DNA from: Tricholoma matsutake
Lineage: Eukaryota; Basidiomycota; Agaricomycetes; Agaricales; Tricholomataceae
Length of the DNA: 64,000 bases
Reading direction: 5' to 3'
Assembly (NCBI GenBank): GCA_026075535.2
Contig: AP026544.2
Span: 558,001-622,000, forward strand
How positions within the stretch are numbered: the stretch's first letter is position 1; each line of letters begins with the position of its first letter. Below the pieces are notes generated by a model, which searched no databases, was not told the origin of the DNA, and saw only the letters and a program-made list of their open reading frames with translations. This document shows, one piece after another, positions 37,374-60,017 of the stretch. A program made the position numbers and the translations under genes.

Positions 37374-37384
37374 AGAGGGGGTGA

Positions 37385-37750
37385 TGTAAGGGGACTAGGG
37401 GGGTGCCCTGTGTGTTTTTCCTATTTTTTATGTTCGTCCCATATTTTTCCCCACCTCATTTCCTTCTATTCTTCATTTTCTATGATTTTTCCGGATTTTA
37501 TTACTAATTTTCCCTTGCTATCATGTTTGTATATGTTGACACTTTTATATTTAGAGGCGGAGTACCCCTTCCGACACATACCCCTTGGTATGATGTCATT
37601 CGGCGGCCTTGATCCGCCTATCTCCGCCTTTTTCTATTTTTAGGTTATATTTGATTTTTGTCGTCTTCACATATACTGGGCATCAGCAAGGGGATCCTTA
37701 GAGTTTTCTCTTCGGATTTCCCTTTGCTAGAGGCTTAGGTTGCCCTTATA
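37385..37750 (+). repeat. Ty3-X 3' LTR, recombinant junction (366 bp)
   Basis: It matches the 5' LTR except for a 60-bp deletion that removes one of the two CTTCGGATTTCCC repeats and the spacer between them. It is followed by ATTAT (37751-37755) instead of GCCGC. This is the left junction of the inversion. Confidence 0.88.
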
Positions 37751-38647
37751 ATTATAGTAAATACAGCATCATATGCACAGCTGTTATTACTCCATATTAA
37801 ACCAGAAGGAGGTGAAATCTGAAATTTTGTACTACCAGATGCCATGTGAGTTGAGTTGTGACTGGTTTTTGCTTTTTTCCTCAGATTTTCAGTTGTGGAT
37901 CATACTGATTTTTCTTTTTAAGGATTTACTTGAAGCAGAAGTGGGATTAGCTTTTGCAGGAGTAGCTGCACCATGCTTCTTCTGTTTTTCTACAATTTTC
38001 CATCTGACATCTTCTATTTCAGGTTCTAATAAAGGATCTCTGGAATTCCACCTAATTGCTTTGTGTACAGTTGATGGTACATGATGCATTCCTTTCCATT
38101 GTCTAAAAGCCATGATTAGCATATTTCTCTGTTCACCAACCACACTTCTGTGCAATTTTCCATTATACCTCAAGTCAGTAATCTCATCAAGCAACTCTAG
38201 CTCTCTGAATTCTTGTCTTAAGGCACCAGAAGCACCACCTGTAATTTTCTGAGGATGAAATGTCTGTGTTATTAATGTACCAGGTGCAGTTGCACTATGT
38301 GACAATGCTGTATAATAAGACTGATGAGAATGATTGTCATTAAGGTTTACCACATTATAAGGCCTAGTTTTACCTTGAGAAGCATAATCTGTCATAGAAA
38401 AGTTGGGAAGAACATCTATCTGGGTTCTTGACACATGTACCTTGGAATCATCAGGCAAAGAACAGTAAATTGGATTTGTAGTTTTGTATAATGGTACAAC
38501 ATTTTCAGGAAGTCCATCGAATTTAACATTAGAAGGAGGATTGGTCAATTTGACAAAAAGTGTTTCCAAGGTTGGTTGACCATGTTGGCCAGGAGATACA
38601 TACTGTAGCTTCTTGACCTTTTGTAATACAAAGTTCTGTTGCACCAT
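37751..38647 (-). pseudogene. Pif1-like helicase C-terminus plus first part of a USP-like peptidase
   Basis: The minus strand from 38647 shows the C-terminal helicase region ERTQ-like VSRTQIDVLPNFSMTDYAS, QGKTRPYNVVNL and SHQSYYTALSHSATAPGTLI, which resemble Pif1-type superfamily 1B helicases seen in basidiomycete mobile elements. After a tail ending SLKRKISMIHN the frame shifts, and near 37760-37800 another frame reads GLIWSNNSCAYDAVF, the Cys box of ubiquitin-specific-protease-like domains. The frame then breaks at the Ty3-X LTR. The rest of the domain, starting YSLWRNNPTHW, is at 60018 on the plus strand. The helicase N-terminus (Walker motifs) is absent. Confidence 0.72.
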
Positions 38648-38659
38648 TATATCTTATCA

Positions 38660-40845
38660 TTACAGGTAAGCCTTTACACAAGGAAAATGATTATTATCAT
38701 TATGAGAGCAATAGAAATTATGTGATAAGGAGATCACAGACAGGGAGTTGAGCAGTAGAGAATATGAGAGAAGCACACAGTGAGATGAGAACAGATAGAG
38801 GAGAGTGCATGAGAAAATAATAAGGAGAGTGATATGAAGCATCATGCAGGAAGCAAGAGAGGAGAATGAGATGTCAGAGAGACATACAATTTCAGCGATG
38901 TCAGTTGCTTTCCCCCAGCGCATGGGATAGTCATCTGAATTGATCTCGTCGTTGATGGAGGATTGAGCCTTTCCCTTGTAAGAGAGGTGTTGGCATACAC
39001 GGTATTTAGTCGGCTCACCAGGAGCACCTTCTTCTGTAGCCACCTGTAGTGGCAACGAGCAAAAAGGTCCAATCTTGTGCTCAAGTTCCTCTTGAGTGAA
39101 GGGACCAGATAACCGGCCAAGACAGAGTTCTTCAGCAATGTACACATGGATTGTGTCAGCATGAAGATTCGCACCAGGAAGATTGGGGGGTGCGAAGGTC
39201 TGATTGAGTGGAGCGAGATTGACAATGGGAAAGCCATTTGTGAGCTTGAAAGGGAGTTCTGGGTAGCAGGAGAGAAGTTGTGTGTGTTCGAGAAAAATCT
39301 GGAAGTGAAGGGCCAAATATGGTGTTTGTATTTTTGTGTAGTCATGATCATTGTCATATGATGAGGGTTCTTCTGTTTGAAGGTTGTCAAAGTAGACATG
39401 ATGCACTGGAACATTCGAGTCTGCATCAAGAAGCAGAGATTGCCAGTCTCTGTAAAATGGAGTCAATGCAAGAGGCATTTCCAAGAGGTGTTTAGGTGTC
39501 GACAACACCTCAAAGACACCTTCGTGTGCAGGCTCCATGATCAGTGGAGCCACACCACGAACAGGCATGTTGAGAGGGGTGGTCGATCTTGCAATGACGC
39601 TTGGCAGAATTGAGCTGGAAGGTGATACAGAAGATGATTGCGGGATTGCTGCAGAGGGTGAGCTTCCCATCAAGGTATTTCGAGTACATTGGAATGCCCG
39701 CTGGCGTCACATCTTCACAACAGTCACTGAATTTGTGTAGTTCATTTGCAATATAAGCAGAGGGGAGCAGAGGGGGTGCCTTCAGACTTGGGATCTCGGT
39801 CGTGAAAGGATAATTTGGAGTCCATGGGTGCGGGACGAAATTTGCTGGTCTCACGATTATAAGGTTGATATTGGGCCTTGGAGGTGGAAGAGGACTGAGG
39901 ATCCTGCCCGAGTTCTCGCGTTGCATTCCAGACATCCGCTGACATTACCTCAAGCTTGACCAATTCGAGGTGTCACAGGTAAGCATCCTTGTTGAATGCC
40001 TGAGGATTGATGCAGTAACGGGTCTGTTCTGCAATGTCAAATCAAAGAATCACTGGAAAGTTGAGATGAAAGTCATCATGCATGGAAAGAAGCAGATAAT
40101 GCTCTCTCCACCTGGTAGTGACCTCCGTGTCAGAGTATGTATCTTGGAACATCATATAACGCTGCCATGCCTCGTGCCACTCTACACTCTCAATTTTGAG
40201 CTCTTCCGGAAATTGTGAGAGATCGAGTATATGACACTTGACACCTGATGAGTTGTAGACAGTGTTCTATTTGAGGGAAGTGGCTTCTGTATGCAGCCTT
40301 CTAGTAGCATCGAGGTGAACAGTGTTAATGGAATGTGGACTTTGTTCTTTGCTAAAGTAATGATGAAAGGATGGATGCCATAGCTGAAGTCAATGGAGGA
40401 GGAAAGTGTGGGAAGCTCGTGTGAGGCAGAGAATAAAAATTTTGATGGTAAAATGGGAGCGGATGTATTGTTGATTAGGTTCAAAGCCTGGCTCTGGGAG
40501 TTTGGTGAAAATTGGGAGAATGCAGAAGCAAATTGTATAAGATTGGAACTATGAGAGGTAACCGTGGTGAGAGGTAACCGTGGGGAGAGGAGTTGTAATA
40601 CGAGAGTTTGTAGAAAGCATGGGCTCATCATTCGGAACATTCAACTCACCGGCATCACGCCGGATACGTAATGCATCGTTACGTGTGGTGCGTAAAAGAT
40701 TTTCGGCATCGATTTGGGTCTGAGTGAGGTTGTTGACGGATGTGGGGGCGTTAGCTGCTATTGTCGCTGGTGTCGTGGAAGATCCAGAAGAGATCGCGGA
40801 CTGGTCTTTATTGGTAGCAGCGGGTGGAGGCCCTGTGTTCGTCAT
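38660..40845 (-). pseudogene. Ngaro/DIRS-like retrotransposon fragment: Gag and RT N-terminus
   Basis: An ATG at 40845 starts a Ser/Thr/Ala-rich Gag-like protein. Further down the minus strand are WHEAWQRYMMFQDTYSD (near 40150), the zinc-knuckle-like HACSWCGSTDHGACTRRC (near 39530) and, in another frame, an RT N-terminus with LHADTIHVYIAEELCLGRLS, IGPFCSLPLQVAT and INDEINSDDYPMRWGKATDIAEI. The last block resembles the RT of basidiomycete tyrosine-recombinase retrotransposons. It ends at a GTATGT that could be a splice donor, and the rest of RT is missing. A 16-nt tandem duplication at 40553-40584 shifts the Gag frame. No recombinase is present. Confidence 0.62.
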
Positions 40846-41272
40846 TGTGAAGATTTCGAAGGAATCAGAGAAGATCTGAGGATGTTGATGAAAAACTGGA
40901 CAGACGGCGTCTGTCAAAGTGAGGGGATGAGGAAGAGGAAGGAAGGACGTGTTTCTTCTTCTTGCCCTTCTTGACCTTCGTCGTGCACAGACCCCCAATG
41001 ACGCTAGACGTCAAAACACGTTGGGGAAATGTCAAAATCACGTCGTGCTTACAAAGCCCGGACACAACTTTTTCGGCCAAGCTCGCAAGCTCGCCTAGCC
41101 TATCGTTGAGTCACCATCAACGTACGGTGCACCAGCTACTTAGCTCGCTTTCCCACGTGTAGAAGCCAGACAAATACAATACTTATGGAATGAAAATTGC
41201 GGTGGGAACCAAGTGGGAACGGCAGGGCAAGGGGGTGATACATTGCATAGGCTAGATAAAAGTAACGATACT
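40846..41272. other. Region between the Ngaro-like fragment and the P450 stop codon
   Basis: This holds the upstream part of the Ngaro-like unit and the P450 3' flank. No gene, hairpin or terminal repeat was recognised. Confidence 0.4.
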
Positions 41273-43417
41273 TCAAGACTCGGTAGTCGCTTCCTCAATC
41301 AGTTTGACCGCATTCTGATCTCTTACAGTCACCACACAAGGGAACGGGTCAGGTTTCCTGAGAAAAAAATGAATCTGACGTTTGCTATTGAGACTACAAT
41401 GAAAAAAACGCACCCGACAAAGCCAGGATAATTGGGTACAGGAGTGATCTCCCTCCCAAATTCATCTGTCGCTTTCTTTATATCAAACGTCGCAATCAAG
41501 CATGCGACTGTCAACCAGATCTGTTGGTCCGCAAAGAACTGACCGACGCAGACCCGACGACCAAAACCGAAGATCATATTTCTAGGGTCTATCTTTTTCG
41601 CTTTCTCCGGATCTAAGCCTAAGAATCGTTCGGGTTTGAAGTTGAATGGGTCTGGATAAACGTCTTCGTTGTGCGTCATCGACCATATATTCGGATGAAG
41701 GATCGTTCCAGCAGGGATTAGGTAGCCGTTGTACACATCATCAACCAAGATTTGATGCGAAGGTGCTAAAGGGCGTGGATTGTGAGACGGTCTGTACGAA
41801 ATGATCGATGGGACACTTACACAGCGGAGCAGCAGGATTCCATCGGAAAAGTTCTTTCACCATGGCATCGACGTAAGGCAAGGATTCCCTCTCTGTAAAA
41901 GTAGGAAGACGATCAAGCCCAACGACACGGTCTATCTCCTCTCTGGCCTTCTTCACAGTTTCGGGGTAAATAATACTTGCCAAAAAGAACGAGTTGATGA
42001 TGGAGTACGTCTGACGCCAGAAAATGGTTATTTTACAAAGCGTCCAGAATAACCTAGTGCGACCCACCGAATCCGTCCCAGCTTTGAGAATAAATGGTCA
42101 GGTCCTAAACAGAGGTAGAAGGAAGCGTCGTTGCTTACCCGCATATAATACAGCAGAAGTCTCCTTGACGACCTGTTCCTTGTCCTTGGGCACTTCATTG
42201 CCTCCGAATTCGTCTAGCAGACGAGTCACATAAGAATTTGGCGCTTTTCCGGCAAGCTATTGAAGAAATGAGGTGGAATATAGTAGACAAAAATGTAATA
42301 CTTGCCCAGAGATCCTTAGCGTTTTTGAATGGTTCCTCCAAAATTTGTTCGCAGTACGGTCGTCCTTCCTCTGCGAATCTCTTGAAGCGAGCGCCAGGGA
42401 ACCAAGATGGCACTGGCGAAGCAAACAGATAATTACCACAGGTTAATGGATAAACAATGCGGCCACTAACCATATTTCACTGTTAACATGCGTTGTTAAG
42501 TGCAGAGAAGGAACATAATCGAGTTGGAGCATACAGATAGGAAGCTTGTCCACCATGAAACCGATTCCCTGGGATGTGGTCAAGACCTCGACAGCTTTTT
42601 TGATCACTGGCATGTATTCGTCTTTCTCCTTCAGATCATAACCATAGGTGCTGGTGCGCAGAGAAGGATTGTCCAGATTGCTTGTATCGCGTTCGGCATA
42701 TTCACTCACAACTTCATGATGGCTGATCCGGTGAGACTTTGTCATACCAGTCAGTTTGTCTGTCAAAAGGTGGGAACCCGTGACGGAATAACGCACTGTT
42801 CAATTTGATAGAGCCAATCATCTGGATTGATGATGAGCTTCTTCAGGAACTTGCGTATAGCATCTTGCTGCGTCTGACGCCATTCACGAACGGCGCGATT
42901 GTTGAGGTTCTGATGCATGACACGTCGATGTTCCTTCCATCTCGTGCCGTAGTTGAAGAATGTCATGTTAAATCCCCATCCGAGCCTTTAGAAACATTTC
43001 GTTAACTGTATCAAATCAAGGGAATGTATGCTTACAAATCTAACATGACGCTCCTTGGCCTATCAGAATAGAGATGTGAACGCTTATCCAGGAGCTCAAA
43101 TGCAATGTTATAGTCGTTGATGACGATAAATTTCGTCTGGAAGATTGTGAAATAGATTAGGCCACCTAATGTTTCGTTAGTCTGATTGAACAATAAGTAG
43201 TGCGAGATCACTCACCATATTTCTGGCTCCACTTATGGAATTCAATCCATGGCTTTTTATGCGGGATATCACTGGCATTGCCGTAGATAAACCAAGGTTT
43301 GGGCCCAGGGGGCAAAGCCAAGCTCTTGCGAGAGCTTCGAAAAGCACCGTACAGAAACAAGGATGTCGCTGCAAGTGCGGCCGCCGTAACTGTAAAGGAT
43401 AGTGGATAGTCCGACAT
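41273..43417 (-). CDS. Cytochrome P450 monooxygenase, 11 exons, apparently intact
   Basis: A consistent model has exons 43417-43216, 43165-43036, 42985-42797, 42736-42710, 42650-42535, 42412-42306, 42256-42139, 42081-42068, 42010-41821, 41765-41414 and 41357-41273. They sum to 1530 nt, 509 codons plus stop. Introns are 49-122 nt with GT-AG ends, apart from one GC-AG intron (42305-42257). Exon 8 is only 14 nt. The N-terminus has a hydrophobic anchor (LSFTVTAAALAATSLFLYG) and the Pro-rich hinge LPPGPKPW. Later motifs are TYGYD, AAGTDS (I-helix, oxygen-binding), KELFRW (ExxR), FKPERF and the heme loop FGFGRRVCVG with its Cys ligand. It resembles agaricomycete P450s often labelled O-methylsterigmatocystin oxidoreductase-like. 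The substrate is unknown. It is an ER-bound enzyme needing a P450 reductase. It lies inside the inverted segment and is the only host-type gene seen. Confidence 0.9.
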
Positions 43418-43771
43418 CTCTGAAAGCTACTTAGCAAAATCAAAATGGACTAAGAAAAGGTCTGAGAAGAACCGCTCACAAATATATGCCGTAGGGTACC
43501 ATCCCGAGTGCGGTGAGAATTTCGACGTTCGGTGGCACTTCACAATTTGTTAGATCGGCCGTAAGTCGACGGTCGTTCGATATCCGCGGAGTCTTGGGTG
43601 GTGGATCATGCTTCGTGGTAAAAATAGCAAGGTGTGTTGACACGGTCTATTACACCGGAATAACTGGACTTCAACCGGAACCTTGCATAATAATCCGGAG
43701 CAATCACAAAATTTCTTGTTTGGTTGGCTTTGTCTTCACCTATAGTTGCGGACAAACTGTCAAACAAACAT
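43418..43771 (-). promoter_or_regulatory. P450 upstream region with a possible TATA box
   Basis: No coding is seen. On the minus strand GGCATATATTTG (complement of 43480-43491) lies about 65-75 bp upstream of the P450 ATG and could be a TATA element. Repeat R begins at about 43772, so the native upstream sequence is at most about 350 bp before transposon-derived DNA. Confidence 0.4.
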
Positions 43772-43866
43772 GATATCTCCACCTGATAATCCCACCAATC
43801 ACCTCTTATTAGAGGTGGAATAGGGTATGCTGTCCCTCTCTAACGAGTTAGTTTAATGTGTACACG
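43772..43866 (+). repeat. Dispersed repeat R, copy 2, left part
   Basis: TGATATCTCCACCTGATAA and the AATCACCTCTTATTAGAGG palindrome match R copy 1 at 12365. The repeat is cut at GCCTCT by copia-2 and its other part is at 24105-24427 in inverted orientation. Confidence 0.6.
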
Positions 43867-43871
43867 CCTCT

Positions 43872-44081
43872 TGTTGAGATAGGCAATCCAAGCCCGTGGT
43901 CTGAGGCCAGATGCCGGATATTATTAATAGAGCAGCTGTTTTGATGCGTGTTCTATTTATAGCACAGTTACATACAGCCATAGTATAGGAGAAAGAATAA
44001 TAAGTTCCTTGTCTCGTTTCCCCCACTTGTCTCTAAGAGAATTATCTCTTCTCTGTTCATTTCCCAGCCTGATTTCCAATA
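43872..44081 (+). repeat. copia-2 5' LTR
   Basis: This 210-bp LTR starts TGTTGAGATAGGC and ends TTTCCAATA. CCTCT (43867-43871) precedes it. The same 5 bp follow the copia-2 3' LTR on the minus strand at 24428-24432, so the two LTRs are ends of one insertion. Confidence 0.88.
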
Positions 44082-44096
44082 GGTTATGGGCCCTGG
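44082..44096 (+). promoter_or_regulatory. copia-2 primer-binding site, half-tRNA-iMet type
   Basis: GGTTATGGGCCCTGG directly follows the LTR, identical to the copia-1 site at 14391. It is complementary to the anticodon arm of initiator tRNA-Met. Confidence 0.8.
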
Positions 44097-44124
44097 CAGA
44101 TTTTTCTAGGCAACAATTACTACT

Positions 44125-44893
44125 ATGACAAATACTCCTGATGTCGAGGAGCAAGGGGAACAACAACAAGAGGAAGAATATTATATGCCTCCTAAATGTA
44201 CAAAAAGGGTCTATCACAGCAGTACCAATGTGCCCACTGGAGAACTCAATGAAGATGAAGATTTACCATCTATCAAACCAATTCGTACCAAAGAATATTC
44301 GAACGTAAACAGAATCACTGATCGCAACCACTTGACGGACGGGAACTGGCACGAATGGAAAGAGAGAATGAAGAGGGTATTTTTCAATTGTGATATTACT
44401 GGGTATGTTAGAGGGGATGTCGAATGCCCTAATGAGAGTATCGATCCCAAAGGCGCACACAACTGGTACAAGAATGATTCTTGGGTGCAACAAATTATTA
44501 TTCATAACATCACCTCCTTGCAAATGAACCACATCGGGTCCAAAAACTCTGCAAAAGAAATGTACTCTGCACTCTTGGTAACTCACAAAAATAAGGCACA
44601 TCAAACTGTTAATCATATTCAATACCTATTATACAAGACCAAATTACTCGATGCTGATGACCTCCTAAAACATCTGGATGTTCTCAAATCATATCGTGAC
44701 TGCATCAACAGATTTCCTAATGAGGAATTTCATGTCTCTGACACATGCTTTAAAGCAATCATATCTGCATCCTTACCTTCATCATGGCATACCTATGTTG
44801 AACCTTATAATGGGAACACCAATGATCCAAATGATCCTGACCCTAAATGGCGCTTAACCTCTGATGCATTTATTGGACTGTTATGGGAGGAAT
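44125..44893 (+). pseudogene. copia-2 Gag, N-terminal part, cut by the hAT element
   Basis: The ATG at 44125 opens a frame with an acidic Gln/Glu-rich leader, KEYSNVNRITDRNHLTDGNW, WVQQIIIHNITSLQMNHIG, SAKEMYSALLVTHKNKAHQT and a C-terminal helix region ending FIGLLWEE. There are no internal stops. The frame is broken by the hAT terminal repeat TAAGACTCCAACC at 44894. The remaining Gag with its zinc knuckles is at 27757-28193 on the other strand. Confidence 0.85.
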
Positions 44894-44949
44894 TAAGACT
44901 CCAACCATACTATATATATACTGTATATATATGTATATGTATATGTATA
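44894..44949 (+). mobile_element. hAT element, 5' terminal inverted repeat and AT-rich end
   Basis: TAAGACTCCAACCATACTA is the inverted partner of the end at 28202 (TAAGGCTCCAACCATATAG). GGAGGAAT at 44886-44893 is the 8-bp target duplication shared with 28194-28201. A (TATATG)-type low-complexity run follows and is cut by the Ty3-B LTR at 44950. The sequence continues at 58905. Confidence 0.8.
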
Positions 44950-45185
44950 TGTAAGCTTACCTCAGATAGAGATGAGCTTCACTGGGTCTGACAGCACAGA
45001 ATAGGACCAGAATATACACGGAGCGAGAGTCTAAGGGAGAGGTACAACAGTGAACAGTGGTGTATGTAAAAAATGGGAGAAAAAAAGGAAGGAATCTGAT
45101 CTCGAGCTGTAAGTATATATATATATATGGGGAAAGTGACAGATGTGCAAATATGAGCATTGGATGAGTAAGCATCAGGATTACA
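44950..45185 (-). repeat. Ty3-B 3' LTR
   Basis: This 236-bp LTR is nearly identical to 58666-58899, including a (TA)n tract of slightly different length. Such similarity suggests a fairly recent insertion. Confidence 0.88.
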
Positions 45186-45345
45186 CCCTCCCCCCCTCTG
45201 AAAAATTTCATATCATCTGCAATCAACCAGAGAGGGAAAAAAATACATAAGTATCGTAAAACTGCTCATCGGGTGCATCAAAAACCCCATAGGGAAAAGC
45301 TACCATCGGCAGGGACATGGTGAAAGTGAACAGAACATGATGCCA

Positions 45346-45749
45346 TCACCTTGGTCCTGCCAACCAGTCCTCGAGAGCTGCATTACCCACAAGTTCCGAT
45401 CCTGCGAGCCATTCGTCTTCTTCGGGCCCATAACCAAGCCACCAAATGAGGTATTGCATTCCTCTTCCATGTTTGCGTGCATCGATTATCTTGTCAATGT
45501 AGTATTCTTCAACTCCATTTTCCGTGATGATCGAGCTGGGTCGAGTGAGCTTTTGTGAAGGGAAAAGGGTGCAGTCGTTTTTGTTGTACGGAAGGATTTC
45601 GGATGTGTGATATGTTGGACACCATTTTGATGTTGCAGGCAAATTCAGCGTTACCGTCAAGGCATCATGGTTGATGTCTGCGATGATGTACGGGCCGTCA
45701 AACCTAGGCATAAATTTAGCTACTTGTTTCTCACCTTTTGCAGTGTATT
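45346..45749 (-). pseudogene. Ty3-B Pol, C-terminal part with chromodomain
   Basis: On the minus strand after the Ty3-C insertion the frame reads KYTAKGEKQVAKFMPRFDGP, a GPF/Y-type module, then LPATSKWCPTYHTSEILPY. A chromodomain-like segment follows (VEEYYIDKIIDARKHGRGMQ, YLIWWLGYGPEEDEWLAGSE). It ends with a stop at 45346. The preceding residues (LSTKNCRQQY) are at 53854 and up, on the other side of Ty3-C, and both sides carry the GTATT target duplication. Confidence 0.85.
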
Positions 45750-46404
45750 TGTTACAATTTTCCTTGTAACTCATGGAACCCAACGCACCTGACGATCCCC
45801 TCCAGACAGGAGGCACCCCTTGATTCATGCCTAGGGCATGTCCTTGACATCAGACACACACATGATGGATGACGACTGCATGCATTTGATCCCCTTCCCA
45901 TGGGAGGCACCCTTGATGCATGGTGACTCCATGCACCCAAACCCACTCCCACAGATGCTGTGATACGACAGCCCCTTGACATGAGGTCCATGATGTCGAA
46001 CTCTCACGATCGACATGCTGCACCGCAGCACTCCATGACATCAGATGCCTCATGCAAGGCATGAGGCCTATTGTTTCTATTTTTACTTGATATGCATCTA
46101 CCTTTCCGATTGGATGATAAGGACCTCCCTTCTAGTATAAGTACTGCGACTTGTAGTAGGGATGTCCTTAGTTTAGATCTAGGCAATTAACAGTCTTAAC
46201 TTGCAACTCGCGAACTTACTCGAAACCACTAAGGAAGCCCCTTAGTGCGTGAACCTGAACGACTCTATGCAGAAGCCCTGCTAGAGTGTACTACCTATCT
46301 TACGTCAGATGCTCCGAGTAAGACTAGTGCCGAATGACTCATCGAGGAAGCACCTCGTTGAACGACATCAACTAGATCGAGTGGTTGAGGCTTCGCCCTT
46401 AACA
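45750..46404 (+). repeat. Ty3-C 5' LTR (655 bp)
   Basis: It starts TGTTACAATTTTCCTTG and ends CGCCCTTAACA. It contains a run of short direct/inverted motifs such as TTGATTCATGCC/TTGATGCATGGTG and a TATA-like TATAAGTACTG at about 46137. Relative to the 3' LTR it has about 45 bp extra near 46000-46050. Confidence 0.88.
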
Positions 46405-46711
46405 TAAGATCTAAACTATCTGCTAGCCCACCTACCTAGGTGTAGGCAATACGTCTTGATACACACCACAGCGACCTGGGTCTAGACAAACCCCAGACCA
46501 ACCACCAAGAGAAGCAGAACCACAGTCAGGTTCATCTTGTTACCAATACAACGGAAGACTAGTCCATTACTCGACCCCAGCACAGCGTTGGTTCTACAGA
46601 TCAACTGACAGACAACGAGGAGATTTCCTCACCGATGAAGACTTTGAACAACTGCACACACCCCCACCCAAAACATCCACCCACTTCTTAACAGACAAAA
46701 CCGACGACCTC
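46405..46711 (+). other. Ty3-C leader between 5' LTR and Gag
   Basis: About 300 bp without coding. A standard TGG-type primer-binding site is not obvious after the LTR (ATAAGATCTAAACTATC). Confidence 0.45.
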
Positions 46712-46719
46712 TACAATGA

Positions 46720-47617
46720 GATGTCCAAACCCACAACCGCACCAACGATGTCCATGAAGGACATTTGAATCCGATCACCCACAGACTTCTCAGGAGAGCG
46801 GTCCAAGACCACCAAGTTCCTGCAAGAGATAGACCTGTACTTGCAAATCAATGATCAGGTCTATGACACGAATCACAAGAAGATCATCTTCATGCTGTCC
46901 TTCATGAATGGAGGGACAGCAGCTGCCTGGGCGCAGGCATTCGTCAACCAACACCAGTCCGAGGGACTCAGTGAATATGCAGACTTCCAACAGAAGGTCC
47001 TAGAGGCCTTCTCACCGATCGACGACGCCGGAATGGCAAAGACAGAGATTAAGAATCTCAAACAAGGTTCAGGGAACCTCGAAGAATATGTGGCGAACTT
47101 CCGCATCCTGAAAGACAGGATGGGAATCACAGAAGATGCAGCCATGATCGAGTACTTCATGGACAGACTGCATCCCGAATTACTGAAGAGGGTACACACA
47201 ATGGAGACAGTGCCCAACACGCTTGAAGGCTGGATAAAGGCAGCTTTGAAATATGAAGGCCAATGGAAACAGGCCATGGCAATCCTGGGGAAGACCAGGC
47301 AAAACCAGATGACAAAAGAAACGATGAAGAAAGGACAGCCCTCTCTCAACATCAACCGACTGATGAACCAAGAACGCATGGAACACCTCTGAAAGGGATT
47401 GTGTTTCATCTGCCACCAACCAGGACACAGATCGTCTGACCACAGGGATGGAAAGAACCCCACTCAGACGGGGTCAGCGCCTCCTCCCTACCAAAACTGC
47501 TTCACCCAGAAGAAGACTGGGGTGGACACCTACCAGAAGATCTGCACGATGCTGGATGAACTAGACGAAGAAGAAAAGGAACGAACCCTCAACCTCATGG
47601 AGGAATCGGGTTTTTAG
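46720..47617 (+). pseudogene. Ty3-C Gag
   Basis: A frame from about 46720 has SPTDFSGERSKTTKFLQEID after a TGA. It then reads the Gag core with FMLSFMNGGTAAAWAQAFVN, EYADFQQKVLEAFSPIDDA, IKNLKQGSGNLEEYVANF and YFMDRLHPELLKRV, and after a second TGA (47391) the zinc knuckle CFICHQPGHRSSDH. The last position of the knuckle is H or D instead of C, so zinc binding may be impaired. The final part is acidic (ELDEEEKERTLNLMEESGF) and ends in TAG at 47615-47617. Confidence 0.82.
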
Positions 47618-47682
47618 AACAGCGGCCTGATACGACGCCAGTCACCGCTGTAGTCTCCCTAGGGTCTGTACTCCTAGCTACC

Positions 47683-48942: not shown

Positions 48943-51900
48943 AAAACGAACATGATCAGCAGGCTCACAAAAGGCAAGGGCTCCCCACAGTACCTACTCA
49001 ACTCGGACATATGGATCAGAGCAAAGACATCCATATCCCAATGACTAGCGCACAAGCAAGAGGAGGGAAAGGAGACTAGCCAACAGACCCTGGACGATTT
49101 ACTGCCACTGGAATACCAGAAGTACAGACAGGTATTTGAGAAAGCCACATCCGAATGATTCCCGGAATCAAGACCATGGGATCACACGATCGACCTGAAG
49201 GAAGGCTTTGTACCAAAGGATTGCAAAGTCTACCCATTGACACCGAAAGAACAAGAGAAACTCAATGAGTTTCTAGATGAAAACCTAGAGAAAGGATACA
49301 TCTGACCATCAAAATCACCCATGGCATCCCCGTTCTTCTTCGTGTCGAAGAAGGACTCCGACACTCTACGACCTTGCCAAGACTATCGCTATCTGAACGA
49401 AGAAACAATCTGGAACAACTACCCCCTGCCACTGATCGGAGACCTCTTGGACAAGCTGAAGGGAGCAAGATTTTTCACGAAACTTGATATTCGATGGGAT
49501 ATCATAACGTACAGATAAAGAAAGGAGACAAGTGGAAGGCAGCATTCAAGACTAACCAGGGGCTATTCGAGCCAATGGTGATGTTCTTTGGGCTGTGCAA
49601 CTCACCAGCAACATTCCAGGCCATGATGAACAATCTCTTCCGAGATATGCTAGATGAAGGATGGCTCGTCATCTATATGGACAACATCCTGATCTTCTCG
49701 AAGACGGAAGAAGAACACTGGATAAGGACCGAAAGGGTCCTCGAACGACTATGACAATGTGATCTCTACCTGAAAGTAGAGAAGTGCAAATTCAATGTAC
49801 AGGAAGTCGAGTTCCTGGGCATGATCGTCAGACCCAATGAACTTGCAATGGACAACATGAAACTGGCTGGGATCAAGGACTGGCCCATGCCAAGGACAGT
49901 GAAGGATGTAAGATCCTTCCTAGAATTCGGAAACTTCTATTGACGATTCATCGGACACTTCACAGATCTGGCCAGACCGCTGAATGACTTGATGAAGAAG
50001 AACCAGAAATTTGAATGGACGAACGACTGCCAGCAGTTGTTTGATGTGCTAAAAAGGAAATTCAACGAAACCCCAGTACTGCTGATGCCAAATGCAACGA
50101 AACCATTTGTGGTAGAATCTGATGCCTCAAAATTTGCGACAGGCACAGTACTCAGACAACAGGATGCCAACGGAGACTGGCACCCATGCAGATACATCTC
50201 ACATTCTTTCAACGAAGTGGAAAGAAATTACGAGATATACAACCGAGAACTATTGGGAGTGATCCGAGCGCTAGAAACATGGAGACACTACCTACAGGGG
50301 ACGCCGTTCCCTGTGACGGTATTGTCTGATCACAAGAACCTGACGTACTTCCATCAGCCACAGAAACTGAACCGACGACAGGCTAGATGGGCCATCTACC
50401 TGTCACAATTTGACCTGAAGCTACAACATGTACCCAGATCACAGATGGTACAATCTGATGCCCTATCAAGGAGAGCAGATCACATAGCCGAAGAAGACAC
50501 CAATAACAAGGACAAGACCATCCTCGCTGATGAACTGTTCGTCAAAACGATTGACACTGAGCTCCAGGGAGCCCTGGTCTCAGCAATAATGAAGGACGAC
50601 CTTGTAAATGATGCTTTACGAGCCCTGAAAAACAATGGAACTCCCCCAATCAAGTCTGCATTGGAGGACTGGAAATTCGAAGATGGCCTGCTCTTTTTCA
50701 AAGACAGATGCTACGTGCCACAGGACGAAACCCTCCGCCGAGCGATCATATGAAAATACCATGATAGCATCACGACAGGACACCCTGGACAATGGCAGAT
50801 GATCGAACTGATCCGACAAGACTACTGGTGGCCAGGAATGGCCAACTTCATCAAGAAGTACATCGAAGGCTGCGCAAAGTGCCAGCAAATGAAAGTTAAT
50901 ACACACCCGACGACCCCACCACCGACACCAATATCATCCGACACCAGCAGACCATTCGAGCTGGTAACAACAGACTTTATCACGGATTTGCCCGTGATAA
51001 ATGGATTTGACTCAATCATGGTCGTGGTAGACCATGGTCTTACGAAGGGGGTAATTTTTATCCCTTGCGCAAAGACGATCGACGCACTTGGCGCTGCAGA
51101 CCTTTACCTGCGCCATGTATACACAAGATTTGGACTCCCTGGAAGAATCATCTCAGACAGAGACCCTCAATTTGCATCCAAACTCTTCCGAGAACTCGGA
51201 CGACTGCTCAGGATTAAGCTATCCATGAGCACTGCCTATCACCCCCAGACCGACGGAGAAACAGAGCGAGTAAACCAAGAGCTAGAGGTTTACCTCCACA
51301 TGTTCTGTTCGAACAAACCTGAGGATTGGGAGCGTTATCTCCCAACAGCAGAATTTGCGCACAACCAGAAGACACACTCCACAGTAAAACATTCACCATT
51401 TTACTTGATGATGGGATATCAGCCATGCGCTATCCCCACCCCTTACGAAAAGATGAATGTGCTGGCCGCCAAACAGAGAATCCAAGAACTTCTCTCTGCG
51501 AGAAGGGAAGCTCTTGCTGCACATGAACTAGCCAGACAGACTATGGCTGCCCAAACAAAAGGGCGATATGAACCGTTCAAGGTTGGAGAACAAGTATGGC
51601 TTGACTCCAAGAACCTGAAGATTGGCTACCCAACAAGAAAACTGGCGCCAAAACGAGAAGGGCCCTTCATGATTGAAGATGCCTTGTTGAGAATGACATA
51701 TGGATTGAAACTGCCACCGAGATGGAGGATCCACCCGGTATTCCATGCGGCTTTACTCACGCGATACCATGAGAATGACACTCATGGACAGAACTTCCTG
51801 ACTCCACCACCTGACCTCGTGGAAGGAGAAAACGAATACGAAGTGGAAGCGATCATCACACACAAGAAGCACGGCAAGACACGCTGTTAGCTTGTGAAAT

Positions 51901-52002
51901 GGGTTGACTACCCGACCTCCGAAAACACATGGGAACCTGAATCGAACTTAAAGCATGCCCCCGAGATCCTGACGGCATATAAGAAGAGGTACCATCTCTG
52001 AT
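48943..52002 (+). pseudogene. Ty3-C Pol: RT, RNase H, integrase, chromodomain
   Basis: RT shows [46 protein letters not shown] and FFTKLDIRW, a frameshift at about 49497, then MFFGLCNSPATFQAMMNNLF and VIYMDNILIFSK. The YxDD box is YMDN, so one catalytic Asp is lost. RNase H has VESDASKFATG, NRELLGVIRAL and LSDHKNLTYF. Integrase has KYHDSITTGHPGQW/CAKCQQMK, TTDFITDLP, ISDRDPQFA and VNQELEVY. A chromodomain-like end (YEVEAIITHKKHGK, LVKWVDYPTSENTWEPES) closes Pol near 52002. Stops are TGA except one TAG (51888). Confidence 0.88.
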
Positions 52003-52184
52003 GAGAACCCAAGAAACCCCCACTATCTGAACCAAACAACACCCCTGATACCCCCTAAACGACGATTGACCCACTGAACGTTGACGCCCTTCCCATTCAC
52101 TCCCACCCCCACCCCCTTTTGATAAAGAACAAATACGAGAAGAACATGGCAACTGGATGACAAGTCATTGACCAGTCACCAAGA

Positions 52185-52625
52185 ATGAACAGACTGCTGG
52201 GGCAACCCTCTTGGGAATGCCCGCACGGAATCACATTCTGGATAAACAGAGATGACTGGATAAAGAGAATATCCTTGACTTGCCCAACATGCTGCCTCTA
52301 TGCGCGAAGGAGCACAAAAATGGATTTGACCTGGGTAAAAGCACAATTTGAGGAGTGGTGCTTTGAAGAAGAGTTAGACGGTGGAGACTATCTCCCCGAA
52401 CAATTTGTTGTCGACCGCAATGGTCTGACCCCAGGCAGGAGACCACTAGTGGGGATTTGCCCACTACTGTGGAATGACCTTCAGTGGAACACCCACTACG
52501 ATGAAGAAAGCGGATTTGAGCTGGCAAGGCAGCTCTTATTTGGATGGCATGGAGAACTGGGGACATTGCTGCGTTCCAGCCAACACCCCCATACACCCAC
52601 ACCCCAGACCACTGAGCACAACTAG
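52185..52625 (+). CDS. Accessory ORF between pol and 3' LTR of Ty3-C, unknown function
   Basis: A 146-codon frame from ATG 52185 to TAG 52625 has no internal stop, although the neighbouring pol is riddled with TGA. It contains a CPTCC motif near residue 31, an acidic amphipathic segment (AQFEEWCFEEELDGGDYLPE) and a Trp/Leu-rich C-terminal half (GICPLLWNDLQW, ELARQLLFGWHGELGTLL). I do not recognise a family. It is on the same strand as Gag-Pol, 180 bp after the Pol stop, so it could be a third element-encoded protein. Chance openness over 441 bp is possible but less likely in this stop-rich context. Confidence 0.5.
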   Translation: MNRLLGQPSWECPHGITFWINRDDWIKRISLTCPTCCLYARRSTKMDLTWVKAQFEEWCFEEELDGGDYLPEQFVVDRNGLTPGRRPLVGICPLLWNDLQWNTHYDEESGFELARQLLFGWHGELGTLLRSSQHPHTPTPQTTEHN

Positions 52626-52639
52626 GTGTGAACTGATCA

Positions 52640-53000
52640 TCCACAAAGATGTTAAACTACCGATTGTCCACAAAGACGATAAAACTACCGATTGTCCGCA
52701 AAGATGTTAAACTACCAATTATAAGCTCTAAATATAAAAGTGTCAACATGTACAAACATGATAGCAAGGGAAAATTAGTAATAAAATCCGGAAAAATCAT
52801 AGAAAATGAAGAATAGAAGGAAATGAGGTGGGGAAAAACATAGGACAAACATAAAAAATAGGAAAAACACACAGGGCACCCCCCTAGTCCCCTTACACCG
52901 ATCGTCCGCAAAGACGTTAAATTAGCGACCGTCTGCAGAGATGATAAACTACCGATCATCCACAGAAGATGTAAAACTACGACGATTTCCCTTGACACCA
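52640..53000. repeat. Minisatellite in the Ty3-C 3' untranslated region
   Basis: A unit of about 28 bp, roughly TTAAACTACCGATTGTCC plus GCAAAGATG, is repeated about six times on both sides of a solo LTR fragment (52720-52897). Units differ by a few substitutions. It lies between the accessory ORF and the 3' LTR. Confidence 0.7.
52720..52897 (-). repeat. Solo LTR of the Ty3-X family, internally deleted
   Basis: On the minus strand it starts TGTAAGGGGACTAGGGGG like the X LTR, continues to CTTTTATATTTAGAG and then jumps to the terminal CTTATA. It has lost about 248 of 426 bp. The flanks CCAAT (52715-52719) and CCGAT (52898-52902) look like a 5-bp target duplication of the minisatellite's CCGAT with one change. 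Confidence 0.8.
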
Positions 53001-53238
53001 CACAAACCTACAAGACCCCTCCCCTTCCAATGACACCACCGACTCCTTGACACCACTACCTAGGGCAGCGCAAACCAGAAGAACCTGATCATGGTCCGAG
53101 TTCGGACATGAATTATTCCTCCATCGTACCCCTTGACCCTGACCTACCCACATAACCAGACCACGCCCGATCAGACCACAAAGGAGAGATGAGGATTTGG
53201 GTCGAAGTGTGGAACTTTTGACCATAGCAAGGGGGTAA

Positions 53239-53848
53239 TGTTACAATTTTCCTTGTAACTCATGGAACCCGATGCACCCGACAATCCCCTCCAAAGAGGA
53301 GGCACCCCTTGATTCATGCCTAGGGCATGTCCTTGACATCAGACACACACATGACGCATGCCGACTGCATGCATTCGATCCCCTTCCCATGGGAGGCACC
53401 CTTGATGCATGGTGACTCCATGCACCCAAACCCACTCCCACACATGCTGTGATACGACAGCCCCTTGACATGAGGTCCGTGACATTGGACGCCTCATGCT
53501 AGGCATGAGGCCTATTGTTTCTATTCTTACTTGATACACATCTACCTTTCTGATTGGATGATAAGGACCTCCCTTCTAGTATAAGTACTGTGACTTGTAG
53601 TAGGGATGTCCTTAGTTTAGATCTAGGCAATTAACAGCCTTAACTTGCAACTCGTGAACTTACTCGAAACCACTAAGGAAGCCCCTTAGTGCGTGAACCT
53701 GAACGACTCTATGCAGAAGCCCTGCTAGAGTGTACTACCTATCTTATGTCGGATGCTCTGAGTAAGACTAGTGCTGAACGACTCGTCGAGGAAGCACCTT
53801 GTCGAACGACATCGACTAGATCGAGTGGTTGAGGCTTCACCCTTAACA
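53239..53848 (+). repeat. Ty3-C 3' LTR (610 bp)
   Basis: It matches 45750-46404 with scattered substitutions and a gap of about 45 bp. It is preceded by a purine-rich AGCAAGGGGGTAA, the probable polypurine tract, and followed by GTATT. Confidence 0.88.
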
Positions 53849-53853
53849 GTATT

Positions 53854-56800
53854 GTTGTCGACAATTCTTGGTGGACAGCATGACACAGTCCCCTATGTCC
53901 AGTTCAAAGTCAGGTCCATGCGTGAGGTTCGCATAAGCAGCTTGAGAGATCTTTGCTTTCAGTAGGTTGTCCTGTGCTTCTAATACATCCAGATGGAGTT
54001 TGTCAATCAGTTCCCATGCCCATGTCTCTTCTGGTGTGGTGGGTACCACCAGGGTGATTAAGGGAGGGATCAGTCGTGGGCTTTGGCCAAGCTGCAATTG
54101 GAAGGGCGAGAAGCCTGTCAATTTGTTAATGGTGTTCATGAGATCAAAACGTACATGTGGCAATGCTCGTGCCCATCCTTGCTGATTCTGGGCTACATGA
54201 TACCGTAGTGCTTGGTTAACGGTCTTGTTTGTTTGCTCACTAGCACCATCCATTTGTGGATGGTATGATGATGACATCTTCAGTTTTATGCCTGTTAGCT
54301 TGTGTAACGCTGTCCAGAATTTCGACATGAAGAGTTTGTCACCATCAGAGATGATTCCCAGTGGTAGTCCATTCTCACAGTACCATCGATCAAAGAAGAT
54401 GGCTGTGAGATCCGTTGCTGTGATATCTGTCCTGGTTGGAACAATCTGGATATCAGCATTGAGGTGGTTGGTCATTGTTAAGATGCAATTAAAACCATTG
54501 TCTTCCGGTAATGGTGCAATGAAATCCATTGCAACAGAGTCTCTGCATTGGTCTGGAATGGGTAATGGATGGAGAGGCCCAGCAGGTTTAGATGTTTTCA
54601 ATTTGTTTCTCTGGCAGTCGGAGCAGCTGGGGACATACACGGTGTCGAGGTCTCTCTGCATATTTGGCCAGTAGTAAGAGTTATGCAAGGAACTGTAAGA
54701 TTTTTCGAAACTGAAATATCCCAGCGTGTCATGTGCAAGCCAGAACAGGGATTCTTGTACGCTGCCAGCTGCAGGTATAACAAGTCGTTCACTGATGAAC
54801 ATGAGGTCTTCTTTTTCTTGGACGATGGGCATGCCAGGCGCTGCACTGCACATCTTCTTGCACCAGGGGTCAGTATCATATCTGCTGATGATCACAGTAT
54901 GTAGTTGGGGGTCTTGCAATATTGACAGCACAGCCATCACTGCTTGTGTGGATGCAATGTTGGTTTCAGCCAGTGCATGTGCAGCAAAGAGGGGGCAAGC
55001 ATGTGTTGCCAGGAGGATGGTGTTCACAGCCACAGAGTTCTCTTTGTCATCATCTGGGCAGAATTCATAAGGAGATTTGGCAGACAGTACAGCAGATTCA
55101 CTAGAGGTACAGAGATTTACCGGCAGTTGAGAGAGTGCATCTGTGACAGTGTTTTCTCCTCCTTTGATGTACATGATTTTGGCATCAAATTGCAACATGA
55201 ATTCCATCCAGCATGCTTGACGTTGTGATAAGTCGGGCTGGGTATCGAAGTTCTCAAGTGTTTTGTGGTTGGTGAAGATGGTGAAGGGTGAGCCCACAAG
55301 GTCTGCTTGCCATTTCCACAACGCACGAATGATAGCTAGCATTTCTTTTTCATGAACTGGGTAGTTGAGTTCCGCACCTTTGAATGTCATGGAATCGAAC
55401 GCGATGGGATGGGCTGTTTCCCATGTTTCGCCGAATGACAGTACAGCTCCAGATCGGAAATCACTGGTGTCAGTGGTAACGAAAATCTTCTTCGTGGTGT
55501 CAGAGTGGTCAATGGTTGTTAGGCAGTCATGGCTGATGATGATGGCCTTGATAGCTCCAAAAGCAAACTGATGCTCACTTGTCCATGTTGGGAATGAGCG
55601 GTTCGCTTCTGCGGTGGTCAGTGGTGTTAGCATCGCGGTTTGTGTAGCCAGGTTCAGCAGGAAAGACATGAGATAATGGACAAGTCCCAGAAAACGTCGG
55701 ACATCTGTGGCCGATTGAGGTTGTGGCCATGACAGGATGCGGTCCACTTTTTGTGAGTCTGCCTCAATACCTTTCGTGGAAGTCTGGTGTCCTAGGAAAT
55801 CAATTGATGTGCAGTACAAGCATGTTTTCTTAGGGTTACAGTACAGTCGGGCAGCCTGAAGAGCAGTCAGGATGGTCTGCACATTGCGGTGGTGCTCATC
55901 GATGGAGTTTGACCAAATGACGATATCATCGAGATAGACATGGCAGATTTTGCCAATGTATTCCTAAAGTGCGACAGCCACCCGGCGTTGGTGGATCGCG
56001 GGTGCATTTCGGAGGCCCATGGGCATAATGAGCCATTCATACAGCCCGAACGGTGTGGAGACAGCAGTCAAAGGTATGTCATCTGGGTGCATCTTCGTCT
56101 GGAGAAAACTGTCAGTCATATCAATGGTTGCCCAGATTTTTCCTTTTGCACAGTTGTTCAAGATATTGTCCACCCGTCGTAGAGGGTGGGAGTCAATGAC
56201 CGTATTTGTGTTCAATTGTCTGTAGTTGTTCACCCAGCATGGAAGTACCATGGGGTCTGCCTTCAGGATAATGACAGCAGGGGATGCCCATGATGACAAT
56301 GATGGCCTGATTCGTCCAGCATCCAGATGTTTTTGTATCAAGATACCCCAAGCTTCACGGAATTTCCGGGGGCATTGGTACGTTCTTGTTTTGATGGTTT
56401 GCTCGGCATTTTTCAGTTTGATACGTGCTTGTACATCTGTTGGCAGTTCATTGACGTGTGGTATCGGTTCAAAAATTTCATGAAACTCAGCTTTCAATAG
56501 GTCCTCATGGTGCATCAATTCAGCGAGGTGTGTGAGTGTTTCAACACATTGGTTGATAGCTCCCACAATGTCGATGGGCTTGACGTAATCAAATGACATC
56601 AATTGTTGTCAAGCATGTAGCACATATTTGAGCTCTGCCAGCATTAGCTTATGGTCAGCTCGAACTTGTTTGAGCTGTTTTTTCAATTTCGGTTTGGCGT
56701 GTTTTGGCAACGGTGCAGGTTCAGGATTTAACAGATCATAATTATTATGTTTGTCCATACAGGTGCGTGCAGAGTGGTCGGTGACTATGAAGTTATGCAA

Positions 56801-57000
56801 TAAGAATGGTAGTCCAAGTATAACAGAAGTGCAGAGGTGTGGGGCAACAAGGGCGCATACAGTACGAGAGGTCCATTGCCCATCTTGGGACATTACAGAA
56901 AGTTTAACCCATTTGGTGAGGGTCGTTCAAGACAGTGACTTTGAAGATTTGACAGCAACATCTACAGTTTCAGGTTTAGGCAGCAGGCGGCGACAGAGAC
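53854..57000 (-). pseudogene. Ty3-B Pol: RT, RNase H and integrase
   Basis: On the minus strand RT shows GRIRPSLSSWASPAVIILKA, IWATIDMTDSFLQTKMHPDD, LIMPMGLRNAPAIHQRRV and ICHVYLDDIVIWSNSIDEHH with an intact YLDD. The first stop in RT (VAL*EYIG) is TAG. RNase H has VTTDTSDFRSGAVLS, EKEMLAIIRALWKW and TNHKTLENF. Integrase shows CSDCQRNKLKTSKPAGPLHP, SVAMDFIAPLPED, IISDGDKLFMSKF and SEQTNKTVNQAL. From 55882 down to the Ty3-C insertion the frame is open for about 676 codons. The frame ends at LSTKNCRQQY and continues at 45749. Confidence 0.9.
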
Positions 57001-58657
57001 CAAGCTTGGTAACTAGGTCTGTGTGGATAAGTACAATGTGAGCTCTGTTGTCTAGCAGCATCGGTACAGTAACAGGAACAGTTGTGTCAGGCCTGCATCA
57101 GCAGGCCTGCCACCAGAGGTGTGGGGATCGGAAAGGAGCACTCACATCATCATTGTATTCATCCTCGGTGTCCAACCCATCCCCCAGAGCGGACGACGCT
57201 GCAGGGAAGGTAGCAGTGGTTTCATCTGCCCATGAACCGACAGCGGCGACAGGGTGGGTTTGATTTCGGTTGTGCAACAACGAGCCTCCTGAGCTAGGCC
57301 CTGCAGTGGGCACAGTGGTGGTGGTACTGGTAGTGTTAGGGACATTGTTTGTGGTGGGTGGAGGAGGGTGAAGGGGGTGGTTGATAAGGCCGGTGTAGGT
57401 AGCCGCATTGGGGAAACCATTTGGGCAGTTTTTAGATATGTGGTATACGTTCAGATGGCAACATTTACGGCAACCATTGTTGTTATCAAGTTGTTCACAT
57501 TCAGCATCAGTGAGGGCCGCCAAGCATTGGATGGTGCCTGCGATAGCAGCAGCGGTTGCGGTGCCAGGGTTTGCAGTGAAATTGGCGGCGTTGGAGGTGT
57601 TGCTTGAGCTATTGTTTGCACAACGACATTTCCCATTGTCTTCACACCTGTTGAAGACTTCTTCGGTGACCTCCCTGGCACGCTTTAGATCAGCCTGTCA
57701 ATTCTCGTCGTGGCGCTTGACCTCAAGAGCCCATGGTCACAACACCAAAATTTTGTTGACTTTGTTTGCGTTACAGCGGCATGTGAGTTCTGGGTCAAGG
57801 CCAGCCTCAAGTTTTTCATGAAGAGAAGCATCCGAGAAATGGGAGGGAGTATTGGCAAGTAAAGAGTTCAGGGACTGCTTGTGAGAGAACCAATCCCAGA
57901 ATGATTGGTTTTGTTTTAATGTTGTGGCAAGGATGCGATGGCGGATGGTGGGTTCCCAATCAGGATCAAGGTAGTTAGCTCATAGCTCAGTCATGAAATC
58001 TGCGAAGGAAAGAGTTAAAAGTCTGTTGCAGTCCCCATTAATCCAGTCATGGATTCTAGTATCTCTGAAGCACCCAAGTATTTTGCGAACTTGGTCGCCC
58101 TGTTTGATTTCCTTGCAGTCGAAGAAGTCGAGGCAGCCGAGTTCAAAAGTTCGCATGACAGCCGGGTTGATTTCCCCTGCTAAGAGAACAGGAGATTTGG
58201 ACTGATGAATATGTTCAATGACAGCGAGTTGATTGGGGATGAAGGACATGGCAAGCAAGGTGCAAGTAGTGTAGGAAACAGGGTAATCAAAATCAGAAGA
58301 CGAGTCAGAGTCAAGTTGTCAATGGTGAGGTGATGTGACTGGGGTAGGTGTATGCGCAGCAGTTGCTGGTACAACAGATGTTTGTAGATCATTGTCGTCA
58401 GCTTCTGTGATAGGCATTAACATTGATACAGTTACTGGTGAGCCAGGCGGGGTGGAAGCTGTGCCTGACATGCCGGCTGGGGTTTGGCGTGTGCCCGGTC
58501 TGTTGGGTGCAGAAATGGTAGTCCGCAGACGCATGGAGATGTGCGTCGCAGGGGTGAGAGTCTTTCTTTGCGACAGTTTGGAATGTAAGGAACAGTGGGC
58601 AGCTAGTTGTAGTACACAGTAAGGACAGGGCGGTTGGCAGTTCTGATCAGTATTCAA
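57001..58657 (-). pseudogene. Ty3-B Gag and protease-like region
   Basis: From near 58650 down, the minus strand shows a Cys-rich N-terminus (CPYCVLQLAAHCSLHSKLS), a Pro/Thr-rich region and a Gag core (PAVMRTFELGCLDFFDCKEI, KILGCFRDTRIHDWINGDCN, LTLSFADFMTEL). Further down are KLEAGLDPELTCRCNANKVN and a variant zinc finger CRKCCHLNVYHISKNC. A protease-like VPMLLDNRAHIVLIHTDLV follows near 57040, in which the usual Asp-x-Gly triad reads Asp-Asn-Arg. TGA and TAG stops interrupt it. This Gag is unlike those of Ty3-A, X and C, so Ty3-B is a separate lineage. Confidence 0.78.
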
Positions 58658-58665
58658 AAAAAATG

Positions 58666-58899
58666 TGTAAGCTTACCTCAGATAGAGATGAGCTTCACTG
58701 GGTCTGACAGCACAGAATAGGACCAGAATATATATGGAGTGAGAGTCTAAGGGAGAGGTACAACAGTGAACAGTGGTGTATGTAAAAAATGGGAGAAAAA
58801 AAGGAAGGAATCTGATCTCGAGCTGTAAGTATATATATATATGGGGAAAGTGACAGATGTGCAAATATGAGCATCAGATGAGTAAGCATCAGGATTACA
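58666..58899 (-). repeat. Ty3-B 5' LTR
   Basis: This is a 234-bp LTR; see the 3' partner at 44950-45185. It is followed on the plus strand by GTATA (58900-58904), the target duplication. Confidence 0.88.
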
Positions 58900-58904
58900 G
58901 TATA

Positions 58905-59591
58905 GGGCTTATCATACAATGTCGGTGTACAGTAAATATACAGTATATAGATAGTTATATGGTTAGTAGTAGTATGATTGTGAACCAAAGTTTCGGGCTG
59001 TAATTTGGCAATAATCCAGCAATCTGGATTTATTAGTTATTGGATCTGACTCCTAGTCGGAGCTCAGCAACTGTAAAGATGTTTAAGCTCAGATCGATGC
59101 AGATCGATGCCACTCTTGTCTGACATTGTTGTCGCCAGACTCACCACACACATCTTTCAATGCATGCCTGTTCTACATTGGTTCTTGGAGGACTGCCACT
59201 GGCCCCACCTAATGCTACTGTCACTCATGTTATTGACTGTCTGGAAGCCTATATACTTACTGGATCCATCAATTACTCACTAGTTTGTTCCTCCAATATA
59301 TGATCAAAAACTTTTCTGTGCCACTAGGATGAATGTTATACCACTGTCAATTACCAGCATGGCCACCACAGGAACAGGGGAGAAATTATAAGTAATGGCC
59401 CCACCTGAATTCAAGCAGTCACATGTCATTATGGCTTCACCAGATTCTTGCTTGCTTTATTTATCAAACAAACCTGCTTCTTGAAAACCCTCACCTCAGT
59501 GCTACCCAACACAGTTCAGCTGGCTACAGAGACTGATATCATCCACCAGGTCTTTACAAAATGCCCAGTACCCCAAAATGGTGCCAGCGGC
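58905..59591 (+). pseudogene. hAT element, N-terminal coding part
   Basis: The first about 80 bp are AT-rich and continue the terminal region from 44949. In the last 200 bp a frame reads HYGFTRFLLALFIKQTCFLK, TLTSVLPNTVQL and ATETDIIHQVFTKCPVPQNG and runs to the X-family LTR at 59592. Joined on paper to the minus strand at 31763 it continues in frame (ASGEQHWQTFNCHLDILFG), which supports a common origin. I do not recognise a domain in this part. It has GCGGC at its edge, the complement of the GCCGC at 31759. Confidence 0.7.
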
Positions 59592-60017
59592 TATAAGGGC
59601 AACCTAAGCCTCTAGCAAAGGGAAATCCGAAGTTAAAATTATGCTACATAATACAGGGATTGGGGGCGCACCTAGCAAAGGGAAATCCGAAGAGAAAACT
59701 CTAAGGATCCCCTTGCTGATGCCCAGTATATGTGAAGACGACAAAAATCAAATATAACCTAAAAATAGAAAAAGGCGGAGATAGGCGGATCAAGGCCGCC
59801 GAATGACATCATACCAAGGGGTATGTGTCGGAAGGGGTACTCCGCCTCTAAATATAAAAGTGTCAACATATACAAACATGATAGCAAGGGAAAATTAGTA
59901 ATAAAATCCGGAAAAATCATAGAAAATGAAGAATAGAAGGAAATGAGGTGGGGAAAAATATGGGACGAACATAAAAAATAGGAAAAACACACAGGGCACC
60001 CCCCTAGTCCCCTTACA
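59592..60017 (-). repeat. Ty3-X family LTR, second inversion junction (426 bp)
   Basis: It matches the Ty3-X 5' LTR closely over the full 426 bp, in the opposite orientation, and retains both CTTCGGATTTCCC repeats. The flanks are GCGGC on the left (59587-59591) and ATAAT on the right (60018-60022), which do not match each other but match the flanks of Ty3-X at 31759 and 37751. Confidence 0.9.

Follow-up and report, generated by a model that had tools for sequence, protein, structure and literature searches.

The window analyzed here is a 64,000-nucleotide stretch of chromosome 7 (contig C7:558,001-622,000) in the telomere-to-telomere (T2T) assembly of the mushroom Tricholoma matsutake. It contains a complete Ty3-type retrotransposon with a long terminal repeat (LTR) at each end and, ∼22 kb away, a solo LTR of the same family in the opposite orientation. 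The flanks of these two insertions indicate that a segment of at least 21.8 kb was very probably flipped by crossing-over between inverted copies of the retrotransposon marY1. Genome searches were made against the 161,040,721 bases in the 13 contigs of the assembly.

Two marY1-Type Insertions with Exchanged Target Duplications

The complete element (31764-37750) is 5,987 bp long and would measure 6,047 bp if its 3′ LTR were the full 426 bp. marY1 is 6,047 bp long with 426-bp LTRs, and 683 copies and 3,240 LTRs are reported for the genome (PMC10211490). By these element and LTR lengths, the element termed "Ty3-X" in the original prediction, which was made from the window alone, fits marY1, of the Ty3/gypsy type. 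A 911-aa open reading frame (ORF; 34638-37373) matches the profiles RVT_1, RT_RNaseH, Integrase_H2C2, SH3_Tf2-1, and Chromo in that order, identifying a Ty3-type polyprotein; among its matches at E values up to 0.001, the integrase core profile (PF00665) did not appear. The pol frame (33429-37373) has two in-frame stops before its terminal one, as does the upstream frame (32209-33474), which we call gag by its position. Despite these stops in the pol and presumed gag frames, the two LTRs of the element are identical save for 60 bp, and, given the stops, the element may have been mobilized in trans.

The sequences abutting the two insertions are exchanged between them. The full element has GCCGC on its left and ATTAT on its right, while along the solo LTR's own strand ATTAT comes before that LTR and GCCGC after it (Table 1). 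From the base composition of the window, the chance of both 5-mers agreeing is ∼9e-7. Homologous copies lie at both ends in opposite orientation (31764-32189 and 37385-37750 forward, 59592-60017 reverse). This swap of target duplications, the central claim of the original prediction, was borne out at the exact coordinates, and all the positions and 5-mers it gave for the full element and the inverted LTR were correct. It described the LTRs as nearly identical. The 3′ LTR, with 366 bp, falls 60 bp short of the solo LTR and is otherwise identical to it; the missing 60 bp are those that lie between the two units of a 21-bp direct repeat.

Table 1. Positions in the window of the two insertions, their target duplications, the restored-junction halves, and the P450 pieces
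Feature	Position	Strand	Remarks
5′ LTR of full marY1-type element, 426 bp	31764-32189	+	TGTAAGGGG...CCCTTATA
Element interior	32190-37384	+	Reverse transcriptase, RNase H, integrase zinc domain, Tf2-1 SH3, chromodomain
3′ LTR, 366 bp	37385-37750	+	Otherwise identical to 5′ LTR
Solo LTR, 426 bp, opposite orientation	59592-60017	-	Identical to 5′ LTR over full length
GCCGC	31759-31763	+	Half of left insertion's target duplication
ATTAT	37751-37755	+	Half of other target duplication, probably moved by inversion
GCGGC	59587-59591	+	Reverse complement of GCCGC, probably moved by inversion
ATAAT	60018-60022	+	Reverse complement of ATTAT
Probable minimum inverted segment, 21,841 bp	37751-59591
J1, left half (putative preinversion target site)	30072-31763	+	Partner half 59159-59591, opposite strand
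J1, right half (present, inverted position)	59159-59591	-
J2, one half (multicopy repeat)	37751-38689	-
J2, other half	60018-60759	+	Continuous with 37751-38689 (opposite strand) in 10/10 fetched paralogues, over differing lengths
Cytochrome P450 gene pieces, within the segment	41329-43426	-	Best piece 41329-41856

Other marY1 insertions were surveyed for comparison. The full elements, 29 besides that of the window, are a nonrandom sample: 20 were fetched whole, being the first 20 of 46 exact 366-type 5′ LTR junctions, and 9 were viewed at their ends, drawn from the 99 listed 426-type junctions outside the window (148 in the genome), with 4 of these 9 picked for unequal LTRs. Both ends could be read in 24 of the 29, and 21 of these 24 carry identical 5-bp duplications. 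Among nine other solo LTRs, one of them fetched as a candidate partner, the duplications match in eight and are off by one base in the ninth. The 35 surveyed insertions, including the window's two, make 595 pairs, and the window pair is the only one with a swap. Genome-wide, GCCGC follows an exact LTR end in two cases, and ATTAT comes before an exact LTR start in three; the window's solo LTR is the only exact-end LTR that carries both 5-mers, altered LTR ends being invisible to these patterns.

Across the genome, marY1 LTRs occur in 426- and 366-bp forms that differ by the 60 bp between the 21-bp direct repeats, and the 366-bp form gave 320 pattern matches (up to two mismatches). LTRs of unequal length were found in 11 of the 21 duplication-matched elements (3 of the 11 preselected for this), divided into 7/13 in the 366-type set and 4/8 in the 426-type set, where three of the four had been preselected. 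These data suggest that frequent slippage, during or after reverse transcription, lies behind the two LTR forms.

Restored Junctions Are Found Uninterrupted Elsewhere in the Genome

The segment 37751-59591 was flipped back in silico, and the two junctions thereby restored, J1 and J2, were compared with uninterrupted paralogues elsewhere in the genome. Restored J1 has two such paralogues, C3:7117385-7117764 (93%) and C12:1467303-1467679 (92%), and the genome otherwise matched J1 only at its own two halves within the window. When the flanks were extended, alignments ran across the junction for 2,157 bp in the C3 paralogue (91.1%) and for 1,084 bp in the C12 paralogue (90.6%). At the base level, the C3 alignment is gap-free near the junction and that of C12 has one 3-bp gap, 5 bp before the 5-mer. 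Restored J2, which lies in a multicopy repeat, is spanned in 32 of the 41 nonwindow rows of the genome search (40 of 46 candidates were scored). All 10 fetched paralogues align across it, eight of them gap-free over ∼105 bases and two with one gap. An open frame crosses each restored junction; seven ORFs of the target repeats at loci L009 and L013 were compared with Pfam, and one matched an integrase zinc domain while six had no match.

As controls, two junctions in the present order were made by fusing the DNA on either side of the full element and, likewise, that on either side of the solo LTR. At the same 12 loci, alignments of these present-order controls end within 11 bases of the boundary, with their halves matching two different repeat families. 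With the restored junctions continuous elsewhere and the present ones not, the present order is, as judged from the paralogous empty sites, the derived state.

Mechanism and Position of the Exchange

The exchanged duplications and the uninterrupted paralogues of both restored junctions together support ectopic recombination between oppositely oriented copies, the mechanism that had been proposed for this locus. Two marY1-type insertions would once have stood ∼22 kb apart on chromosome 7, facing opposite directions; the insertion in target J1 would have been flanked on either side by GCCGC, and that in target J2 likewise by ATAAT. Crossing-over between the two copies would have turned round everything between the exchange points, so that each insertion is now bordered on one side by a duplication half that had belonged to the other. 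Of the events that would both turn the segment and exchange the duplications, a crossover between homologous copies in inverted orientation is the simplest, and we infer homologous recombination with a crossover inside the shared element sequence.

Where in that sequence the crossover fell is a separate matter, and three exchanges would account for the present arrangement. If the 3′ LTR recombined with the solo LTR, 37751-59591 (21,841 bp) would have flipped and the full element would always have been in J1; this is quite possible, though it falls short of an even chance. If the 5′ LTR was the partner, 32190-59591 (27,402 bp) would have flipped, including the element interior, and the full element would have come from J2, a course to which we give somewhat less credence. 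The remaining course, doubtful in our estimate, would start from two full elements exchanging anywhere in 6 kb, after which one collapsed to a solo LTR. Since any of the three leaves the same footprint, the 21,841 bp are a minimum and the participating LTR is not fixed by the footprint. The 21.8-kb inversion originally described therefore stands as a lower bound, but its end points are not unique, 27.4 kb being equally compatible.

Taken together, the latter two courses, which invoke the same mechanism at another exchange point and are counted within the probability of the inversion itself, are slightly favored. Undoing an exchange in the 5′ LTR or in the interior restores the same two duplications, and the solo LTR and the 5′ LTR agree perfectly over all 426 bp. 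That identity is uninformative, however, as nine further LTRs outside the window tie for the top score at 100% identity. LTR length, 366 or 426 bp, was tried as a crossover marker and rejected: the 60-bp difference cannot place the exchange because unequal LTRs are common within single elements whose duplications are intact. No specific counterpoint to these other exchange points emerged. In a check for chimerism, the one difference among the window LTRs was the 60-bp length variant, and this also varies inside other single elements. In a check for interior exchange, the nearest copy was L062 or L063 for all eight pieces of ∼650 bases, among 20 fetched copies, which are too few of several hundred to exclude a switch.

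Evidence against the Inversion and Alternative Explanations

Several observations weigh against the inversion as reconstructed here. The empty sites are paralogues and not an allelic, un-inverted chromosome; the LTR lengths, as just described, fail as a marker of the crossover; and 9 of the 41 nonwindow rows do not span J2, six of them being paired halves of three loci. At L096 (C1:19056870), L097 (C1:4186640), and L098 (C13:669200), other sequence adjoins the J2 insertion site within a few bases. To the same side belong the 3 of 24 other readable full elements that lack matching duplications and for which no swap partner was established. These three also show that duplications can be lost, which is what an explanation without any inversion would need: two unrelated insertions would each have lost or mutated one duplication and match by coincidence. 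This we regard as extremely improbable, given the ∼9e-7 chance of both 5-mers agreeing; coincidence also leaves the continuity of both flipped junctions elsewhere unexplained, and the empty-site test contradicts it.

A false inversion produced in assembly by two misjoins at repeats is likewise a very improbable explanation, if a less extreme one. In its favor, the assembly consists of 71.6% repeats and was made from degraded DNA of a heterozygous sample (sporocarps, heterozygosity 1.05%; PMC10211490). However, the HiFi reads, with an N50 of 10-11 kb (PMC10211490), should cross the 426-bp solo LTR easily and the 6-kb element often. The window is without N, and a false inversion would require a pair of misjoins that agree with each other, including one at a repeat of only 426 bp. 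Crossing-over between inverted marY1 copies is the reading that we adopt.

Contents of the Segment and Other marY1 Insertions

The segment between the insertions had been said to carry the only intact host-type gene, a cytochrome P450. Four of eight ORF pieces at 41.3-43.4 kb match PF00067 at E values up to 0.1, two of the eight pass the Pfam cutoff, and the best E value is 2.9e-26. P450 pieces are present on the minus strand, but the status of the gene as the only intact one of host type is not established. The segment also holds other Ty3 and copia remnants and a 172-bp marY1 LTR fragment (52726-52897). Direct repeats at 45750-46331 and 53239-53775, 95% identical and ∼7.4 kb apart, enclose Ty3 capsid, RNase H, and integrase domains and probably represent the LTR pair of another, larger Ty3 element. 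Elsewhere in the window, two pairs of inverted repeats (23657-23878 and 24103-24324, 94%; 11846-11978 and 12006-12138, 92%) are close-set and foldback-like.

By eye, the sequences adjoining the J2 site in L096, L097, and L098 look different from one another, and from these three loci the J2 site is possibly an insertion hot spot.

No second swapped pair was established from the three unmatched full elements, L059, L065, and L078/L079. The 3′ 5-mer of L059 (C1:18041370, minus strand) was found at no exact LTR start genome-wide. By eye, the sequence beyond its 3′ LTR starts with a polypurine-like stretch and runs into the opening bases of a further LTR before the 5′ 5-mer of L059 is reached; the 3′ side seems to be an aberrant integration end with extra element sequence. 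For L065 (C2:6082123), the 3′ 5-mer adjoins a single exact LTR start, situated on C6, which was rejected as a swap partner, being an ordinary matched solo LTR; the 5′ 5-mer of L065 had four LTR ends listed, the matched element L057 among them. The candidate partner on C8 for C4:2792706 (L078/L079) also proved to be a matched solo LTR, and a second LTR start, on C11, belongs to the 5′ LTR of a longer element, the other end of which was not found within the fetched piece. L065 and L078/L079 are possibly products of other rearrangements. Two solo 366-bp LTRs, L039 (C2:1021798) and L049 (C2:6416949), have flanks that by eye resemble marY1 interior plus LTR in the opposite direction; they look like nested insertions that create new inverted pairs.

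Discussion

The locus offers a case, exact to the base and checked independently, of a gene-bearing segment very probably turned round by an LTR retrotransposon in a mushroom genome. Swapped duplications combined with paralogous empty sites make a cheap test that needs a single genome and is applicable to all marY1 copies. No paper on a marY1-mediated inversion was found among the matches listed in the open-licence literature. Sporocarps are dikaryotic. It is conceivable, though we think it unlikely, that the inversion is not fixed, that inverted marY1 copies still flip the P450 segment, and that the nuclei of a dikaryon or sectors of a long-lived shiro differ in its orientation. If flipping is ongoing, marY1 LTRs would be a running source of structural difference among matsutake strains and between T. 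matsutake and Tricholoma bakamatsutake. Multiple inversions are described between the latter two species, with no break-point mechanism named in the parts of that report covered here (PMC10627285).

Swapped target duplications are established evidence for ectopic recombination, and the mechanism is classical. In plants, unequal recombination of LTR retrotransposons leaves intact elements or solo LTRs without matching duplications, as here; unlike the present case, that account concerns the removal of elements, and "inversion" and "inverted" are absent from its main text (PMC7251063). In Saccharomyces cerevisiae, dispersed copies of the LTR retrotransposon Ty1 recombine and rearrange chromosomes, as we propose for marY1, but the Ty1 events were induced or selected in the laboratory (PMC3102749, PMC9879454), whereas the arrangement in T. 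matsutake is a natural footprint in a basidiomycete. A close parallel is the Galileo inversion 2z3 of Drosophila buzzatii, in which two copies of one transposon lie in opposite orientation at the break points, the target duplications are exchanged, a single target copy is present in non-inverted chromosomes, and ectopic recombination was inferred (PMC2775673). Galileo is a DNA transposon, and its case was built on comparison with non-inverted chromosomes (PMC2775673); the T. matsutake case involves an LTR retrotransposon, un-inverted junctions read from paralogues, and a segment of ∼22 kb.

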